The notes under the pieces: generated by a model
Told to the model about the DNA's origin: nothing
The model's database searches: none
Seen by the model: the letters and a program-made list of their open reading frames with translations, nothing else
Shown here: positions 2,386 through 45,005 of the stretch, one piece after another
How the letters are laid out: the number at the start of each line of letters is the position of its first letter
How positions within the stretch are numbered: the stretch's first letter is position 1
Source: Azospirillaceae bacterium
GTDB taxonomy: Bacteria > Pseudomonadota > Alphaproteobacteria > Azospirillales > Azospirillaceae
Direction: 5' to 3'
Length of the DNA stretch: 64,000 nucleotides
Assembly: GCA_028283825.1 (NCBI GenBank)
Contig: JAPWJW010000001.1
Span: forward strand, 992,001-1,056,000
Position numbers and translations under genes: made by a program

Positions 2386-2839
2386 GGTGGGGTCCTGCGG
2401 GGGCGGGGAAGACGACAGGGTGATGGTGCCCAGGCCGTCGTACACCGGTTCAGCCCCGCATACGCGGGGAAGACTAGGGCGGAGTCAATCACCCGAACGG
2501 CTACCGCGGTTCAGCCCCGCATACGCGGGGAAGACATGCGTTCCTCGTGTTAGGGAGGTGGTCTGCGCGGTTCAGCCCCGCATACGCGGGGAAGACTCGC
2601 TGAACGACCATCCAGCGGTGCGGCAGGCCGGTTCAGCCCCGCATACGCGGGGAAGACGCGCTGAACGACCATCCAGCGGTGCGGCAGGCCGGTTCAGCCC
2701 CGCATACGCGGGGAAGACGCGCCAAGGCGCTCGCCACGAAGGATGGCGGCCGGTTCAGCCCCGCATACGCGGGGAAGACTGACGCGCCCTACGCGTTGGC
2801 CTCCATAAAGACGGTTCAGCCCCGCATACGCGGGGAAGA
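2386..2839 (-). CRISPR. CRISPR array 1, leader-distal segment (left of the IS)
   Basis: Seven good repeats begin at 2447, 2508, 2569, 2630, 2691, 2752 and 2813 (counted without the usual leading C), period 61: 29-bp repeat and 32-bp spacer. One degenerate copy lies at 2386-2413, with 19 of 28 positions conserved. The stem is CCCCGC/GCGGGG with a GTAT loop when read on the minus strand. By comparison with E. coli-type I-E repeats (ending in GAACCG on the crRNA strand), crRNAs are read leftwards. The degenerate copy next to cas3 is therefore the trailer end. The repeat at 2813 is cut by the IS: its last ten bases reappear at 4263-4272. Two adjacent spacers (2597-2629 and 2658-2690) are the same but for their first base. 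Confidence 0.97.
2831..2839. repeat. Left target-site duplication of the IS256-family element
   Basis: The nine bases CGGGGAAGA end the left array segment and recur exactly at 4263-4271 on the other side of the element. They are part of the CRISPR repeat. Duplications of 8-9 bp are usual for the IS256 family. Confidence 0.9.
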
Positions 2840-4262
2840 GGTCACGTCCCACTGCGTGGTGTAGGAGCGCCTCCGCCGTGTCAGGCGTGGAGGCCGGCAT
2901 AGCCGGCTGGAAGGCCTGACACGGCGGGCGGTCATCGCGGTTCTTCGGTAGAGTTTGGTCACCACAACACATCCCCAACCGAGGGTGACCACGATGACCG
3001 ACCCGATGATGGCGCTGCGCGTGATGCTTGAAAAGGGCGCAGACGCCGATGTCCTGAGACAGATGATCGGCTTTGCCGCCGAGCGACTGATGGAACTGGA
3101 GGTTCAGGAGTTGACCGGTGCCGGCCACGGCGAACGGTCGGCCGACCGCCTGGTTCAGCGCAATGGCTACCGTGACCGCGATTGGCATACCCGCGCCGGC
3201 ACGGTGGAACTGCACATCCCCAAGCTGCGCAAGGGCAGCTACTTCCCAGGCTTCCTGGAGCCCCGCCGCATGGCGGAGAAAGCGCTGACCGCCGTGATCC
3301 AGGAGGCCTACATCCAGGGCGTCTCCACCCGCGCGGTGGACGACCTGGTCCAGGCCATGGGCATGACCGGCATCTCCAAGAGCCAGGTCAGCCGGCTGTG
3401 CGAGGAGATCGACGGCCGGGTTAAGACCTTCCTGGAACGGCCGCTGGAAGGCGACTGGCCCTACCTGTGGATCGACGCCACCTATGTGAAGGTCCGCCAG
3501 AACGGCCGCATCGTCTCCGTGGCCGTCACCATCGCCGTGGCGGTCAATACCAACGGTCGGCGAGAGATCCTGGGCATGGACATCGGCACCTCGGAAGCCG
3601 AGACCTTCTGGGTAGAGTTCCTGCGCAAGCTCAAACGCCGCGGCCTGGGTGGCGTCAAGCTGGTCGTCTCCGATGCCCACGAGGGCATCAAGGCCGCTGT
3701 CGCCCGCGTATTCCGTGCCACCTGGCAGCGTTGCCGTGTCCACTTTATGCGCAACGCCTTGGCCCACGCCGGCAAGCAAGGCCGCCGTGTGGTGGCTGCC
3801 TTCATCGGCACCGCCTTTGCCCAGGATGACGCCACCGCCGCCCGGACCCAGTGGCGCCAGGTCGCCGATCAACTCCGACCCAAGGTCGGCAAGCTCGCCG
3901 CCCTGATGGACGAGGCCGAGGAGGACGTCCTGGCCTTCATGTCCTTCCCCGCCGCCCACAGGGCAAAGCTGCACAGCACCAACCCCATCGAACGCCTCAA
4001 CGGCGAGATCAAGCGCCGTACCGAGGTCGTCGGTATCTTCCCGAACGAGGACGCCATCACCCGCCTGGTGGGTGCCGTCCTCATGGAGATCAACGATGAA
4101 TGGGCAGTTCAGCGCGGTCGCTACATGACCCTGGAAACCATCGCCGCCGTCGGCGATGATCCAACCATCATGCTGCCCACTGTCGCCGCATGATCGTCCC
4201 GGCCAAACGCGCCGGAGACCAAAATGACCGGGCGCTTCTTACACCACGACCTGGGACACGAT
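2840..4262 (+). mobile_element. Intact IS256-family insertion sequence inside a CRISPR repeat
   Basis: The element is 1423 bp with one transposase gene and imperfect terminal inverted repeats. The left end (about 2846-2871, GTCCCACTGCGTGGTGTAG) matches the inverted right end (about 4232-4257) except for a few bases. Outside the ends lies a 9-bp direct repeat that is itself CRISPR repeat sequence, and the remaining repeat base (C, 4272) and a full 33-base spacer follow. Insertion was therefore simple and recent enough for the duplication to be perfect. The transposase reads rightwards, against the direction of crRNA transcription. An inverted repeat also lies upstream of the gene, around 2873-2930 (CGCCGTGTCAGGC and GCCTGACACGGCG). 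Confidence 0.93.
2994..4193 (+). CDS. IS256-family (mutator-type) transposase
   Basis: The protein has 399 residues, the usual length for the family, and looks intact. The DDE catalytic residues can be placed: first D in [10 protein letters not shown] (around 3470), second D in VVSDAHEGI (around 3670), and E in the conserved [13 protein letters not shown] stretch (around 3985-4015) that typifies this family. The N-terminal part holds the DNA-binding region (for example [12 protein letters not shown]). ATG at 2994 is chosen because a GAGGGTGA ribosome site lies just before it; a GTG at 2955 would add 13 residues. It drives cut-and-paste or circle-type transposition of the element that interrupts array 1. 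Confidence 0.95.
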
Positions 4263-4271
4263 CGGGGAAGA
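4263..4271. repeat. Right target-site duplication of the IS256-family element
   Basis: An exact copy of the nine bases at 2831-2839. With the C at 4272 it completes the 3' part of the interrupted CRISPR repeat. Confidence 0.9.
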
Positions 4272-5249
4272 CGATGCGGACCCCGCCGGGATGGTTTCGG
4301 GAGTTGGTTCAGCCCCGCATACGCGGGGAAGACAAGGCGGCCAATTCCTGCCCCGACGGGAAAAACGGTTCAGCCCCGCATACGCGGGGAAGACCGGGGA
4401 CCGTCACCGCCCCCTGGTGGACCCAGCGGTTCAGCCCCGCATACGCGGGGAAGACTGCGTTCCAGGCCCGGAGAGTTGGCGCATGTCCGGTTCAGCCCCG
4501 CATACGCGGGGAAGACGCGACCAAGAAATCTATCTGATCGATGCCATGCGGTTCAGCCCCGCATACGCGGGGAAGACCTTGGCGGGATCGCTCAGGTCGG
4601 GGGTGATGTCCGGTTCAGCCCCGCATACGCGGGGAAGACGGGTGGTGCATGACAGCTTGCAGGGCCTGCGCCGGTTCAGCCCCGCATACGCGGGGAAGAC
4701 TGGATGAAGGTGACCCGGCATGGTCTGCCCGCCGGTTCAGCCCCGCATACGCGGGGAAGACGCGAATTCGCCAATCCCTACGCCCGGTTCAGCGGGTTCA
4801 GCCCCGCATACGCGGGGAAGACCCGTCGACGCGACCGGTCCGGAGACCCCGAGGCAGTTCAGCCCCGCATACGCGGGGAAGACACCTAGGCGTGGCCCTG
4901 CCGCCCGACCGAGAGCGGTTCAGCCCCGCATACGCGGGGAAGACGTGCCGTTGCACTCCATGAGGGTGGCGAGCCCCGGTTCAGCCCCGCATACGCGGGG
5001 AAGACCCGTTGGGATTTTTTCTCTGACTCCGTTTGACCGGTTCAGCCCCGCATACGCGGGGAAGACCACGCCGTGACATTACTGCTCACCCTCAAGCCCG
5101 GTTCAGCCCCGCATACGCGGGGAAGACGGCCGGGATTTTAATCTCAAAGAAAACAAGGTCGGTTCAGCCCCGCATACGCGGGGAAGACTTCCTCGCGCGA
5201 GGTAACCTCCGCTAACGCCCCGGTTCAGCCCCGCATACGCGGGGAAGAC
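4263..5249 (-). CRISPR. CRISPR array 1, leader-proximal segment (right of the IS)
   Basis: After the repeat fragment at 4263-4272, sixteen repeats begin at 4306, 4367, 4428, 4489, 4550, 4612, 4673, 4734, 4795, 4856, 4917, 4978, 5039, 5100, 5161 and 5222. Spacing is 61 bp apart from one 62. Repeats are nearly invariant; the copy at 4856 has a G-to-A change in its first base and 4306 lacks the usual preceding C. With the left segment the array had 23 good repeats, one degenerate repeat and 23 spacers. The leader lies to the right (5250 onward), so these are the newer spacers and stay connected to the promoter despite the IS. Confidence 0.97.
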
Positions 5250-11699: not shown

Positions 11700-13013
11700 G
11701 TGTTCCCCGCAGGCGCGGGGCTGAACCGCCAACCTCTTCGATCCAGTATCAGGGGCCGGGGTGTTCCCCGCAGGCGCGGGGCTGAACCGTCGTCCAGCAG
11801 CAGTTTTGTGCCGCGCCGGCCGTGTTCCCCGCAGGCGCGGGGCTGAACCGCACCTGAAATTAACATCAAGAGGACGTTATGTGTGTTCCCCGCAGGCGCG
11901 GGGCTGAACCGGCCGTAACACCACTTCAGTGATGTACTTTTCCGTGTTCCCCGCAGGCGCGGGGCTGAACCGATCATAGACGCCGGGGCCGATGCCGGGC
12001 ACGAGTGTTCCCCGCAGGCGCGGGGCTGAACCTGCATGTTGATCACATAAAGCCGCGTAGCCGTTGTGTTCCCCGCAGGCGCGGGGCTGAACCGCGCATG
12101 GGCGGCGCGCCTTGGATGACGGGAGAGTGTTCCCCGCAGGCGCGGGGCTGAACCGGATAGAACCGGCGCGCAGGCCGTCAAGAAGAGCGTGTTCCCCGCA
12201 GGCGCGGGGCTGAACCGGCTTGGTATCGGGTTAGGATCAGGAGGGTTCTGTGTTCCCCGCAGGCGCGGGGCTGAACCGGTGTAATGCGCATACCGCGTGT
12301 TGTCCACGTTGTGTTCCCCGCAGGCGCGGGGCTGAACCGGCGCGTCACCCTGAACCATCATCTGGAACTCTGCGTGTTCCCCGCAGGCGCGGGGCTGAAC
12401 CGCTTGATCTGGACGTATTTTTGCTGTTCGGACAGTGTTCCCCGCAGGCGCGGGGCTGAACCGTGTGACCGACGCGGCAACGCGGTCCATGGTGCGTGTT
12501 CCCCGCAGGCGCGGGGCTGAACCGCCGTCGTCTGGTGGCGCTGGGCTTCCGCAACCGTGTTCCCCGCAGGCGCGGGGCTGAACCGCGAATGCTAGCGTCC
12601 GCAGCTACCGCCCAGCTGTGTTCCCCGCAGGCGCGGGGCTGAACCGGCGTTGCATCCACCGACCTCTTCGGGCCGGACGTGTTCCCCGCAGACGCGGGGC
12701 TGAACCGGCTGAACGCCACGCCTGGGAGCAGATGCTGGAGTGTTCCCCGCAGGCGCGGGGCTGAACCCGGCGGCGCAAGAGATATGGCCTACCTTTAGTC
12801 GTGTTCCCCGCAGGCGCGGGGCTGAACCGGGCCTTGATAGGGCTGTCCCCATTACCCTCCCGTGTTCCCCGCAGGCGCGGGGCTGGACCGTGGGGCCGCG
12901 ACCTTGAGATGAGGGACACCATGGTGTCCCCCGCACGCGCGGGGCTGAACCGACCATCCCCGGGCGGTTCTATGCGCCCCATCAGTATTCCCCGCAAACG
13001 CGGGGCCGATCAG
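11700..13013 (+). CRISPR. CRISPR array 2, 22 repeats
   Basis: Repeats of 29 bp begin at 11700, 11761, 11822, 11883, 11944, 12005, 12066, 12127, 12189, 12250, 12311, 12374, 12435, 12496, 12557, 12618, 12679, 12740, 12801, 12862, 12924 and 12985, giving 21 spacers of 32-34 bases. The repeat has stem CCCCGC/GCGGGG with an AGGC loop and ends CTGAACCG, in the E. coli-like sense on the plus strand. Variants accumulate at the far end: 12679 (one loop change), 12740 (end changed), 12862 (GGACCG), 12924 (two changes) and 12985 (several). This marks 13013 as the trailer end. Confidence 0.97.
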
Positions 13014-40727: not shown

Positions 40728-42143
40728 ATGAAGGCAGACATCGTCATCAACGGCGCCACGCTGGTCACCGACAGCGCCATGGTCCAGGCCTCCATCGCCA
40801 TCAAGGACGGCGCCATCCTGGCCATCGGCTCGGCCGACGCCATGCCGCCGGCGGCCGAGGTGGTGGACGCCACCGGCAAGTACATCCTGCCCGGCGCCAT
40901 CGACGCCCATGTGCATTTCCGCGACCCCGGCTACACCCACAAGGAAACGTGGGAAACGGGCACGGCCAGCGCCGCCATGGGCGGGGTCACCACCGTGTTT
41001 GAGATGCCCAACACCAACCCGCCCACCGGCACGGTGGCGGCGCTGAACCTCAAGCTGAAGTCCGCCGAGCAGGCCTATGTCGATTTCGGCATCTACGGCC
41101 TGCTGGGCGAGGAAAACCTGACCGAGCTTGAGGCCCTGATCGAGGGCGGCGTGGCCGGCTTCAAGTGCTTCATGGGCAACACCTTCGGCAACTTGCCGTC
41201 GCCGCCCACCGGCGCCATCCTGGAAGGGTTCGAGATCGTGGCCAAGCACGGCTACCGCATCGCCCTGCATGCCGAGAACGCCTCCATCATGGCGCGCCGG
41301 TCCAAGAAGCTGCGTGAGGCCGGCCGCTGCGACCCCCTGGCCCACTTGGACGCCCGTCCGCCGGTGGTGGCGACGGAGGCGGTGGCGCGCGCCGCCATCC
41401 TGGCGGAATGGACTGGCGCCCGCATCCACATCCTGCATGTGTCGTCCGGTGACGAGTTGCGCCCCCTGCGGGAAGCCAAGGCGCGCGGCGTGGACATCAC
41501 GGCGGAGACCTGCCCGCACTACCTGCTGCTGGATGAACGCGCCTATACCGAGAAGAAGTCGCTGATCCGCGTGAACCCGCCGGTGCGGGAGAAGACGCAC
41601 CAGGACCAGCTGTGGACCGCCGTGCGCGACGGCACCATCGACATGATCGCCACCGACCACGCCCCGCATTCCCATGAGGAAAAGCACAAGGACGACATCT
41701 GGACGACGGATTGCGGCTTCACCGGCGTGCAGACGCAGATGCCCCTGATGCTGACCCAGGTATCGGCCGGCCGCCTGTCGCTGACCGATTATGTGCGCAT
41801 GACCTCGCTGGCCCCGGCCAAGGCCTTTGGCCTGTATCCGCGCAAGGGCGCCCTGTTGCCGGGGTCGGACGCCGACCTGGTGGTGATCGACATGGAACGC
41901 GAAACCCAGGTGGACTCCGCCAGGCTGAAGTCCAAGGGCTCCAGCACGCCGTTCCAGGGCACCGCCACCAAGGGCGCGCCGCTGCACACCCTGGTGCGCG
42001 GCCGCTTCGTGATGCGCGACGGCGCCCTGGTGACGGAGGCCAAGGGCCACGGCCGCAACGTGCGCCGCATCCAGCAGATGCCCACACCCACGCCCCGCAA
42101 TGTCCACACCACAACGGCGGCCATCCTGAAGAAGCGGGGGTGA
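40728..42143 (+). CDS. Dihydroorotase/hydantoinase-like cyclic amidohydrolase
   Basis: A 471-residue metal-dependent cyclic amidohydrolase. The metal ligands HxH are in AIDAHVHFRDPGYTHKE, with later His residues in ALHAENAS and ILHVSSGDE and Asp in IATDHAPHS. MPNTNPPT and AETCPHYLLLDE are typical of class I dihydroorotase and allantoinase. By sequence it would be called dihydroorotase, but its place next to HyuAB and LysR favours a catabolic cyclic amide such as a hydantoin or dihydropyrimidine; I cannot decide. The usual carbamylated Lys region appears as GFKCFMGN. ATG at 40728. Confidence 0.85.
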   Translation: MKADIVINGATLVTDSAMVQASIAIKDGAILAIGSADAMPPAAEVVDATGKYILPGAIDAHVHFRDPGYTHKETWETGTASAAMGGVTTVFEMPNTNPPTGTVAALNLKLKSAEQAYVDFGIYGLLGEENLTELEALIEGGVAGFKCFMGNTFGNLPSPPTGAILEGFEIVAKHGYRIALHAENASIMARRSKKLREAGRCDPLAHLDARPPVVATEAVARAAILAEWTGARIHILHVSSGDELRPLREAKARGVDITAETCPHYLLLDERAYTEKKSLIRVNPPVREKTHQDQLWTAVRDGTIDMIATDHAPHSHEEKHKDDIWTTDCGFTGVQTQMPLMLTQVSAGRLSLTDYVRMTSLAPAKAFGLYPRKGALLPGSDADLVVIDMERETQVDSARLKSKGSSTPFQGTATKGAPLHTLVRGRFVMRDGALVTEAKGHGRNVRRIQQMPTPTPRNVHTTTAAILKKRG

Positions 42144-42355
42144 TGGGTTCCGCCTGATAGCCCCCAACGTTCTTTCCCTGTCCTGTGCCGGTCCGGCCGC
42201 CCTGGGGCCGGCACCGGCCGGAATAGGCCATTCAACAAAATATTCGCACCCCCGCGCGTTTTTGCGCGCAACCTGCGGGGCCGTCGCGGCGAACCAATGA
42301 TCAGGGCCATCGCAAGGGGGCCTGACGGAATGCCTTCAATCGACGGAGCTGATTC

Positions 42356-42919
42356 ATGAAAGTCTTCAAGGGTGCGCGCACGATCCTCGCCATCGCGGCG
42401 GCCGTGGTCGTGGCGGGGGGTGCTTCCATCGCCGCAGCCGCGCTGCCGCAGGGCGCCACGGCACCCGACTTCCAGCTGCAGGGCGCCCTGGGGGGCAAGC
42501 CGCTGACCTTCTCGCTGCGCCAGGCGTTGGCGCAGGGGCCGGTCGTGCTGTATTTCTTCCCGGCGGCCTTCACCAAGGGCTGCACGATCGAGGCGCATGA
42601 CTTCGCCGAGGCGACGGACGATTTCAAGAAGCTGGGCGCCACCGTCATCGGCGTCACCGCCGGCAATGTCGACCGCGTGGCCGAGTTCTCCAGCGTGGAA
42701 TGCCGGGACAAGTTCGCGGTCGCGGCCGACCCCGACGCCAAGGTCGCCATCGAATACCAGAACACCATCCAGGCCGACGGCCGCGTCATCTCCGACCGGA
42801 CGTCCTATGTGATCGCGCCCGACGGCAAGATCCTGCTGAGCTACACCGACAAGAACCCCGACGCGCACATCGAGAAGGCGATGGAGGCCGTCAAGGCCTA
42901 CGCCAAGGCGGGCAAGTAG
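42356..42919 (+). CDS. Exported peroxiredoxin (AhpC/TSA-type, Bcp-like)
   Basis: A 187-residue thiol peroxidase with an N-terminal signal peptide (hydrophobic TILAIAAAVVVAGGASIAA, cut near AAA). The peroxidatic Cys is in FTKGCTIEAHDF; the second Cys of Bcp (five residues on) is missing, and another Cys in SSVECRDKF may serve instead. It would reduce peroxides in the periplasm. It is preceded by a 212-bp gap that holds nothing I could name and followed by a hairpin; the ECF sigma gene lies downstream on the same strand. Confidence 0.88.
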   Translation: MKVFKGARTILAIAAAVVVAGGASIAAAALPQGATAPDFQLQGALGGKPLTFSLRQALAQGPVVLYFFPAAFTKGCTIEAHDFAEATDDFKKLGATVIGVTAGNVDRVAEFSSVECRDKFAVAADPDAKVAIEYQNTIQADGRVISDRTSYVIAPDGKILLSYTDKNPDAHIEKAMEAVKAYAKAGK

Positions 42920-42928
42920 GCCTTCCTG

Positions 42929-42961
42929 TTCCTGGCGGCGCTCTGGGGCGGCCGCCAGGAA
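42929..42961 (+). terminator. Hairpin after the peroxiredoxin gene
   Basis: TTCCTGGCGGC (42929-42939) pairs with 42951-42961 around an 11-base loop, 10 bp after the stop codon. No clear T run. Confidence 0.55.
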
Positions 42962-43081
42962 CGCCGATTGTCGTGAACGTCGCGGGCGGGCGGGCGGGCG
43001 TATAAGCTGTCGGGGCAAGGGGGCGCCGCCCCCATCGTCCTCTCCATTTCCGGGGCCGACATCCGTGAGCACCGCACACCC

Positions 43082-43645
43082 GTGAGCGCCGCCCCGCCGC
43101 GTGCCGAGTGGCCGGCCCTGATGGCGCGCGCGCAGGCGGGCGACCAGGCGGCCTATGGGCGGCTGCTGAAGGCGATGCTGCCCCTCATCCAGTCGCTGGC
43201 CCGGCGGAAGGTCGGCGATGACGGCCTGGTGGACGATGTCGTGCAGGACGCGCTGATGACCATCCATGCCGTGCGCCACACCTATGACCCGGCCCGGCCG
43301 ATCCTGCCCTGGGTGGCGGCGATCGTGTCGGCCCGCGCCGTCGATGCCCTGCGCCGGCGCGGACGGCACCGCCGGCGAGAGGTCCAGGACGAGGGCGCGC
43401 TGCTGGCGGCGGTCGACGCCGGCGCCTTCGCGCGGGTGGAGGGGGGGGGGGCACGGCGGGAACTGGATGGCTTCCTTGGCCGCCTGCCGGCCCGGCAGCG
43501 CCAGATCGTCGAACTTGTCCATTTGCGGGAGATGAGCCTGGTTGATGCCGCCGGCGCCAGCCGCCTGTCCGTATCCGCCGTCAAGGCGCTGCTGCACCGC
43601 GCCGTCACCCGGCTGCGCCAATTCGGGATCGATGACCATGGCTGA
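43082..43645 (+). CDS. ECF-type RNA polymerase sigma factor
   Basis: A 187-residue extracytoplasmic-function sigma factor. Region 2 includes DDVVQDALMTIHAVRHTYDPARPILPWVAAI and region 4 includes LPARQRQIVELVHLREMSLVDAAGASRLSVSAVK. This layout fits sigma factors paired with NrsF/DUF1109 anti-sigmas (Caulobacter SigF type). GTG at 43082 is the start. A run of eleven G residues at 43441-43451 falls in the linker between regions 2 and 4 (codons Glu-Gly-Gly-Gly-Ala) and could slip, changing frame. The gene overlaps the anti-sigma gene by 8-14 bp, so the two are coupled. Confidence 0.88.
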   Translation: MSAAPPRAEWPALMARAQAGDQAAYGRLLKAMLPLIQSLARRKVGDDGLVDDVVQDALMTIHAVRHTYDPARPILPWVAAIVSARAVDALRRRGRHRRREVQDEGALLAAVDAGAFARVEGGGARRELDGFLGRLPARQRQIVELVHLREMSLVDAAGASRLSVSAVKALLHRAVTRLRQFGIDDHG

Positions 43646-44270
43646 CCACGACGCGCTGATCGACCGGCTCAGCCGGGCCGCCCGGCCGGTCAGACGGCCG
43701 CTTCCCGCCGGGCTGCGCACCGCCGCCTGGATGGCGGCGGCCCTGCCGTGCGGCGCCCTCGCCACCCTGGCCCTCCACCGGGTGGCGACGGATTGGTCAC
43801 GGCCCGGCGGGGGCTGGGCCGCACTGCAACTGGCCCTGGCGCTGGCCGCCGGCGGGCTGGCCATCCTGACGGCGTTCGAATGGAGCATCGCCGGGCGCCG
43901 GGCCGTGGCCGGCAAGTGGGTGGCCCCCGTCATCGCCGCCTGGCTGGCGACCAGCCTGGGCAACGTGGCGATGTTGCCCAGCCCGATGGGAGTGATCGGT
44001 GCCCGAAGTTACTGTTACGTGTTCATGGTGGTGGCCAGCCTGCCGATGATCGTCCTGTACGTCGCCAGCCTGCGGCGTACGCGTACGCTCTACCCCGACC
44101 GCTGCCTGGCCGCCGCCGGCCTGGGCATCGCCTTCATGACGGCGGCCTTGCTGGCCCTGTGCCACCCGGTGCGGGGGCATCTGTGGGATTTCCTGGCGCA
44201 TCTGGCCGCCGGCGCCACGATCATCGCGATCACGGTGGCGGGCGGCCGCCGCTGGGTGGCGGTGCGCTGA
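43632..44270 (+). CDS. NrsF-like (DUF1109) membrane anti-sigma factor
   Basis: A 212-residue inner-membrane protein with about six hydrophobic helices after a short cytoplasmic N-terminus (DHDALIDRLSRAARPVRR). Cysteines in GARSYCYVF and LLALCHPVRGHLW sit where NrsF proteins carry the two Cys needed for metal sensing in Caulobacter. It would hold the preceding sigma factor at the membrane until a stress signal arrives. The start is ATG 43632 or 43638, both inside the sigma gene. It is convergent with the double-HTH regulator. Confidence 0.78.
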   Translation: MTMADHDALIDRLSRAARPVRRPLPAGLRTAAWMAAALPCGALATLALHRVATDWSRPGGGWAALQLALALAAGGLAILTAFEWSIAGRRAVAGKWVAPVIAAWLATSLGNVAMLPSPMGVIGARSYCYVFMVVASLPMIVLYVASLRRTRTLYPDRCLAAAGLGIAFMTAALLALCHPVRGHLWDFLAHLAAGATIIAITVAGGRRWVAVR

Positions 44271-44301
44271 GCGCCTGGCTTGGGTTCGCCTTCCAGGCGC
44301 C

Positions 44302-44865
44302 TCAGCAGAGTCCGGGCACGCGGCCCCAGTGCGCCACCTCGGTGCGTCCCCGGGCGGGGGCGGGCCGGTCCGCGCCGGAGGGGGCGGCGGCGGGTTGGCC
44401 CCGGATGATGATTTCCTGAAGCGTATGCACGCCCAGCTTCTCACTGGCCCGTTCGCGGTGCTTCTGCACGGTGCGGGGGCTGATGTCGATCAGCCGGGCG
44501 ATTTCCTTGCTGGTCAGGCCGGCGGCGACGTAGCGCACCACCTCCGCCTCACGCGGGCCCAGGGCATCCCAGGCCAGCGGCGGCGGCGTCTGCCTGGCCT
44601 GCCGGGCGACACCACTGGCATAGGCGATCAACTGCGCGGTGGAGGCCAGACCCGCCTTGCGCATGATGTTGGAGCGGTGCTTGCGGATGGTCAGCTCCGA
44701 CGCGCCCAGGGCGGCGGCGATCTGCGAACTGCTGAGGCCCTGTCCGGTCAGGTCCAGGACTTCGCGTTCCCGGGGGGTGAAGGGCGTGGCGATGGAGGGT
44801 GTCATGGCGGCTGGCTCATGGGCGGTTGTGGTCACCGCGGCGCCTGGCGCCAACGGCCCACACAC
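44302..44865 (-). CDS. Regulator with two LuxR-type HTH domains
   Basis: A 187-residue protein made of two GerE/LuxR-type helix-turn-helix domains in tandem. The first is FTPREREVLDLTGQGLSSSQ to LTIRKHRSNIMRKAG; the second is LGPREAEVVRYVAAGLTSKE to TVQKHRERASEKLGV. No receiver or autoinducer domain is present. Start at 44865 or an ATG at 44805. Tandem LuxR HTH proteins without a sensory domain are uncommon. Its targets are unknown; it lies just behind NrsF (convergent) and downstream of the STAND gene pair on the same strand. Confidence 0.82.
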   Translation of the reverse strand: MCGPLAPGAAVTTTAHEPAAMTPSIATPFTPREREVLDLTGQGLSSSQIAAALGASELTIRKHRSNIMRKAGLASTAQLIAYASGVARQARQTPPPLAWDALGPREAEVVRYVAAGLTSKEIARLIDISPRTVQKHRERASEKLGVHTLQEIIIRGQPAAAPSGADRPAPARGRTEVAHWGRVPGLC

Positions 44866-44972
44866 CCTGCCAGCAAGCGGAAGAATTCTTCCTTCTGTTA
44901 TTCTTCTGACGTGTAACTTATTGATATATATAAGGAATGATTTGCGGTAGCTTCCGACTTGTCTGGAAGGAA

Positions 44973-45005
44973 AACGGCCCGAGGCTTTAGAAAGCCCGGG
45001 CCGCT
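44973..45005 (-). terminator. Terminator of the STAND/small-protein operon
   Basis: CGGCCCGAGGCTTT and AAAGCCCGGGCCG form a long stem with one mismatch; read leftwards it is followed by TTTTCC. It lies 40-70 bp behind the small gene, in the 178-bp gap before the double-HTH regulator. Confidence 0.8.

Follow-up and report, generated by a model that had tools for sequence, protein, structure and literature searches.

The locus considered here lies in a 64,000-nt stretch of DNA (the window, from whose first letter all positions are counted) and carries, in order on the forward strand, a predicted promoter, a peroxiredoxin gene, an ECF sigma factor gene and a gene for an NrsF-family protein, which together, as judged from gene order and sequence, form a SigF-NrsF-type (ECF16-like) oxidative-stress operon. 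The peroxiredoxin gene comes first (42356-42919, 187 aa, AhpC-TSA match with E 7.3e-24), and its product is 65-70% identical to the peroxiredoxins of related plasmid operons. The sigma gene (43082-43645) has a GTG start and encodes 187 residues in which two Pfam domains, Sigma70_r2 (PF04542, 43.1 bits) and Sigma70_r4 (PF04545, 36.3 bits), score above their cut-offs and no more is found; the protein matches sigma factors generally and appears to be of the SigF/ECF16-like kind. An imperfect 17-bp tandem duplication (43059-43092) spans its start codon and presents two GTG triplets, at 43065 and 43082, in different frames. Elsewhere in the window, two CRISPR-like arrays with a 61-nt period (2568-5188 and 11820-12772) lie in opposite orientations, with CCCCGC..GCGGGG palindromes in their repeats.

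The end of the sigma gene (stop codon at 43643-43645) overlaps the start of the putative anti-sigma gene (43638-44270, 210 aa), for which ATG codons at 43632 and 43638 are both possible starts. Compared with its counterparts at the NrsF position in six plasmid operons, three carrying the annotation NrsF/DUF1109, the encoded protein shows 40-55% identity, and its Cys126 and Cys175 are invariant in all seven. Its hydropathy profile has seven peaks, two of them overlapping, giving six hydrophobic segments; the Pfam NrsF model matches it weakly, at 14.1 bits under a cut-off of 26.8.

The predicted promoter, GCAACC-N16-CGAA at 42268-42293, begins 88 nt before the start codon of the peroxiredoxin gene. 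The SigF motif of Caulobacter is given as GTAACC-N16-CGAA (PMC3511200) and the ECF16 motif of Brucella as (T/C)GTAAC-N17-CGAA (PMC8315932); read in the latter register, the window's -35 element GCAAC is one base off. GCAAC or GAAAC, spaced by N16 or N17 from CGAA, stands at -76 to -114 before the peroxiredoxin gene at every one of 16 related loci (17 of 17 with the window), and since this SigF-like element is conserved there, the operon probably activates itself through it. The motif alone is not enriched genome-wide (80 matches vs 76 for a reversed control), and a regulon search by promoter pattern was uninformative. We also considered a promoter between the peroxiredoxin and sigma genes, near four copies of CGGG (42983-42998), and rejected it: the only match there is off-pattern, and the conserved site is the one before the peroxiredoxin gene. 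The same gap (42920-43081) holds a long hairpin (~42927-42964) beside the CGGG repeats, and an Rfam search of 42000-45000 found nothing.

The feature of interest is a run of exactly eleven G residues at 43441-43451, preceded by A at 43440 and followed by CAC. It lies in frame, reaching from the last base of the GAG codon of E120 through three GGG codons (G121-123) to the first base of the GCA codon of A124, and with eleven Gs the sigma reading frame is open over all 187 codons. Sigma70_r2 matches residues 29-95 and Sigma70_r4 residues 132-180, so that the tract falls between the two. In an AlphaFold model built on 22 sequences (mean pLDDT 85.6), residues 106-122 are of low confidence and residues 122-133 form a helix, which places the tract at the end of a flexible interdomain linker. 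The sequence-only reading, which had described a run of eleven Gs inside an ECF sigma gene, between sigma regions 2 and 4, with an NrsF gene coupled to it, was right as to the identity of both genes, their overlap, and the position and length of the run.

That reading had further proposed that slippage by one base would cut off region 4, and the reading frames bear this out in both directions. Loss of one G leads into a frame at 43452-43535 that adds 27 residues and stops at 43533-43535; gain of one G leads into a frame at 43453-43545 that adds 30 residues and stops at 43543-43545. The length of the tract thus sets the reading frame, and a slip either way ends translation before region 4. Without region 4, recognition of the promoter -35 element would be lost, and because the operon promoter looks like the sigma factor's own target, none of the three genes should then receive self-activated transcription. 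Between the shifted-frame stops and the two candidate start codons of nrsF lie ~87-103 nt, so early termination should also break any translational coupling between sigma and nrsF; a reverse slip would restore the frame and with it the system. We also considered whether a shifted sigma frame might run on into nrsF; the frame entered on loss of one G is indeed that of nrsF, but it stops first, at 43535.

The nearest relatives found for the sigma protein (52-61% identity) are encoded on plasmids of Novosphingobium, Sphingobium, Pantoea and Erwinia. In a tree of 83 proteins, none of whose rows is known to be Caulobacter SigF, the window and the sigma factors of six plasmid operons (57-61% identical to it) form one clade with 100/100 support. 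Sixteen loci of this clade were fetched, and the twelve that are annotated all show the order peroxiredoxin, thioredoxin-family protein, sigma, NrsF/DUF1109, with the sigma/nrsF overlap seen in the window; the other four, all from Novosphingobium, lack annotation, and for three of these tblastn located the peroxiredoxin, sigma and NrsF genes. The thioredoxin-family gene is missing from the window between 42919 and 43082, and a relative at 45% is found elsewhere in the genome.

Six other genomes of the genus yielded no clade member at the threshold used. Three of them have only more distant matches, two being rows of the tree and the third an identical duplicate, and the second sigma hit of the window's own genome groups with these. 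Five peroxiredoxin loci of the same genus (L129-L133) have no sigma relative by tblastn. At four of these (L130-L133) no sigma-type promoter was found by pattern upstream of estimated start codons, L132 having a single off-pattern match at -145. The fifth, L129 (genus member G004, contig C11), encodes a peroxiredoxin 86% identical to that of the window and is without sigma or NrsF; its CAAACC-N16-CGAA element at ~-86 is perhaps a relic of a sigma promoter.

Conservation of the tract had been set beforehand as a check on the proposal that it is a contingency locus, and on this point the sequence-only reading was not supported. In all 82 distinct relatives (88 loci minus six duplicates; one of the 82, L106, ends inside the linker) the tract is shorter or interrupted: no run exceeds 7 in the gene, and the longest in the linker is 6. 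Nor does any of the 16 clade loci carry it; six of them are also among the 82, and in the ten further ones, of which L185 shares its linker with L134, again no run in the gene exceeds 7. The absence is a weaker refutation than these counts suggest, since even the closest relative shares no more than 61% identity and a contingency tract may be confined to one lineage. Both the residues and the length of the linker are poorly conserved (29-41 aa where the relative is complete), and where the alignment is closest the tract stands opposite codons for mixed residues at equal length, as in pSA1, whose EAIGAEREL aligns with EGGGARREL of the window in a linker that has 37 residues in both. Given the equal length in these alignments, the tract appears to have been built up mainly through substitution. 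Conservation lends the putative contingency function no support.

How unusual the tract is depends on the background chosen. Apart from this single run of eleven, no G or C run in the window is longer than 7, a length reached twice. Markov models predict ~0.46 G or C runs of at least 11 per window at first order, ~0.05 at third order and ~0.004 at fifth order. Dinucleotide shuffles gave a mean of 18.5 8-G matches vs 4 observed, all four within the tract, so the shuffle overpredicts such matches. By dinucleotide content alone the tract is unremarkable; it stands out because G runs are otherwise rare in the window. Among 30 long open reading frames of the window, GGG makes up 17% of glycine codons, and of the 17 overlapping Gly-Gly-Gly windows in them none is encoded by GGG throughout.

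Across the 7.16-Mb genome, merging of the listed match positions into runs gave 15 of at least 9, ten of at least 10 and four of at least 11 (lengths 13, 12, 11 and 11). Judged by open frames and GC3 instead of gene calls, which was done for 14 of the 15 (C5:878347 was left out), the other three runs of at least 11 lie outside likely genes, and the tract is the longest run in any likely gene of the genome. On the same judgement, seven of the ten runs of at least 10 appear to lie outside likely coding frames, and those in likely genes would be the tract itself and two runs of 10, one near a lipoprotein-like N-terminus (C3:1394045, locus L047) and one, of Gs, in an RHS-like tail (C5:210102, locus L058).

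We suggest, with a probability of roughly 60%, that this is an ordinary SigF-NrsF-type operon whose tolerant sigma linker has acquired a lineage-specific, hypermutable run of eleven Gs, more probably through accident than by evolution as a contingency locus. As sequenced, the gene is in frame and, going by homology, the system would work as usual: NrsF would hold the sigma factor at the membrane until stress affects its cysteines, whereupon sigma would transcribe the operon. For Caulobacter it is reported that NrsF restrains SigF and that changing cysteines 131 and 181 relieves the restraint (PMC3511200). Very probably the tract raises the rate at which reversible OFF variants arise, although both the slippage and its rate are inferred. 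A table in a modelling paper gives 0.0002 insertions and 0.0028 deletions per division for a G11 tract in another organism, C. jejuni (PMC8224891). Transfer of these rates to a genome bearing MutS and MutL is an assumption; both are present here, and slippage may be far rarer than in C. jejuni.

As to its origin, mutation in a linker that tolerates change is the most likely source of the tract, rather than selection for a switch: the linker is unconserved in residue and length and disordered in the model, and the genome has other long G runs with no role in a gene. Two observations count against accident. Four runs of at least 11 in the genome compare with ~0.45 expected at the fifth-order rate scaled to its size, a surplus that selection or biased slippage could explain, and a purely neutral view must call it luck that the longest run in a likely gene is this one.

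The likeliest of the other readings is that selection keeps the tract so that a bet-hedging fraction of cells always lacks, or regains, the sigma-driven antioxidant response. The uninterrupted run uses GGG three times although this codon accounts for 17% of glycine codons, no other likely gene has a longer run, a slip at this site would give a clean null in which the anti-sigma gene is uncoupled too, and the predicted self-promoter would make the OFF state all-or-none. Against this stand the uniform absence of the tract from relatives and clade loci, the single genome behind the reading, and the position of most other long tracts of that genome outside likely genes, and we regard selection for switching as unlikely. 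A little more doubtful is the specific proposal of a sigma-factor contingency switch, in which reversible slippage at this one tract would toggle the autoregulated SigF-NrsF peroxiredoxin operon en bloc and produce alphaproteobacterial subpopulations pre-adapted to oxidative stress.

At the other extreme, the tract may be inert, hardly slipping in a genome proficient in mismatch repair and leaving three linker glycines without consequence. The presence of MutS and MutL, the in-frame assembly and the suitability of glycines for a flexible linker all agree with this, but homopolymers of this length slip measurably in C. jejuni (PMC8224891), and we consider inertness slightly more doubtful again. 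Slippage during translation or transcription, with a GGAGG-like head running into slippery Gs (43438-43451) and both shifted frames ending within ~30 codons, could release a share of region-2-only sigma; we think this very improbable, as the tract is conserved in no relative or clade locus and there is no partner product with a known role. Homopolymers commonly hold consensus-length errors in assemblies, yet such an error is equally improbable here, where eleven Gs give the right frame, region 4 aligns with relatives 57-61% identical, and the linker length matches that of pSA1.

Even an accidental tract predicts drift of the oxidative-stress response in laboratory stocks of the strain. If the tract does switch, a single mutable run at the top would govern the whole sigma/anti-sigma operon, a cheap form of bet-hedging. 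Switching by homopolymers is known best from pathogens adapted to a host, and the bacterium with this operon looks like an environmental bacterium. A search of the literature on phase-variable ECF sigma genes, mostly through titles and the beginnings of abstracts and with thin coverage of subscription papers, found no homopolymer in a sigma gene among the entries listed, which is weak evidence of novelty.

The closest parallels for the predicted switching are flgR and flgS and the poly-G loci of C. jejuni, where, as described, indels in coding tracts change the reading frame and turn off a regulon (PMC3930126, PMC8224891). In C. jejuni, however, switching has been observed, and in flgR the tracts consist of A/T and lie in a gene that regulates the sigma-54 regulon rather than forming a G run in a sigma factor. 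In its architecture the operon resembles SigF-NrsF of Caulobacter crescentus and the ECF16 systems BcrS-AbcS of Brucella and EcfF-OsrA of Bradyrhizobium, described as an ECF sigma gene followed by one for a two-cysteine NrsF/DUF1109 membrane anti-sigma factor, and its predicted promoter sequence is close to GTAACC-N16-CGAA (PMC3511200, PMC8315932). It differs from them in having the peroxiredoxin gene first, GCAACC at the predicted -35 and eleven Gs in the sigma linker. With the plasmid operons of Novosphingobium, Sphingobium, Pantoea and Erwinia it shares the predicted promoter, the sigma/nrsF overlap and the gene order, apart from the thioredoxin-family gene that the annotated ones have between peroxiredoxin and sigma and that the window lacks; the G tract, in turn, is found in the window and not in them. 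This operon widens the SigF-NrsF kind by a peroxiredoxin-led version, common to alpha- and gammaproteobacterial plasmids, with a conserved and likely self-directed promoter.
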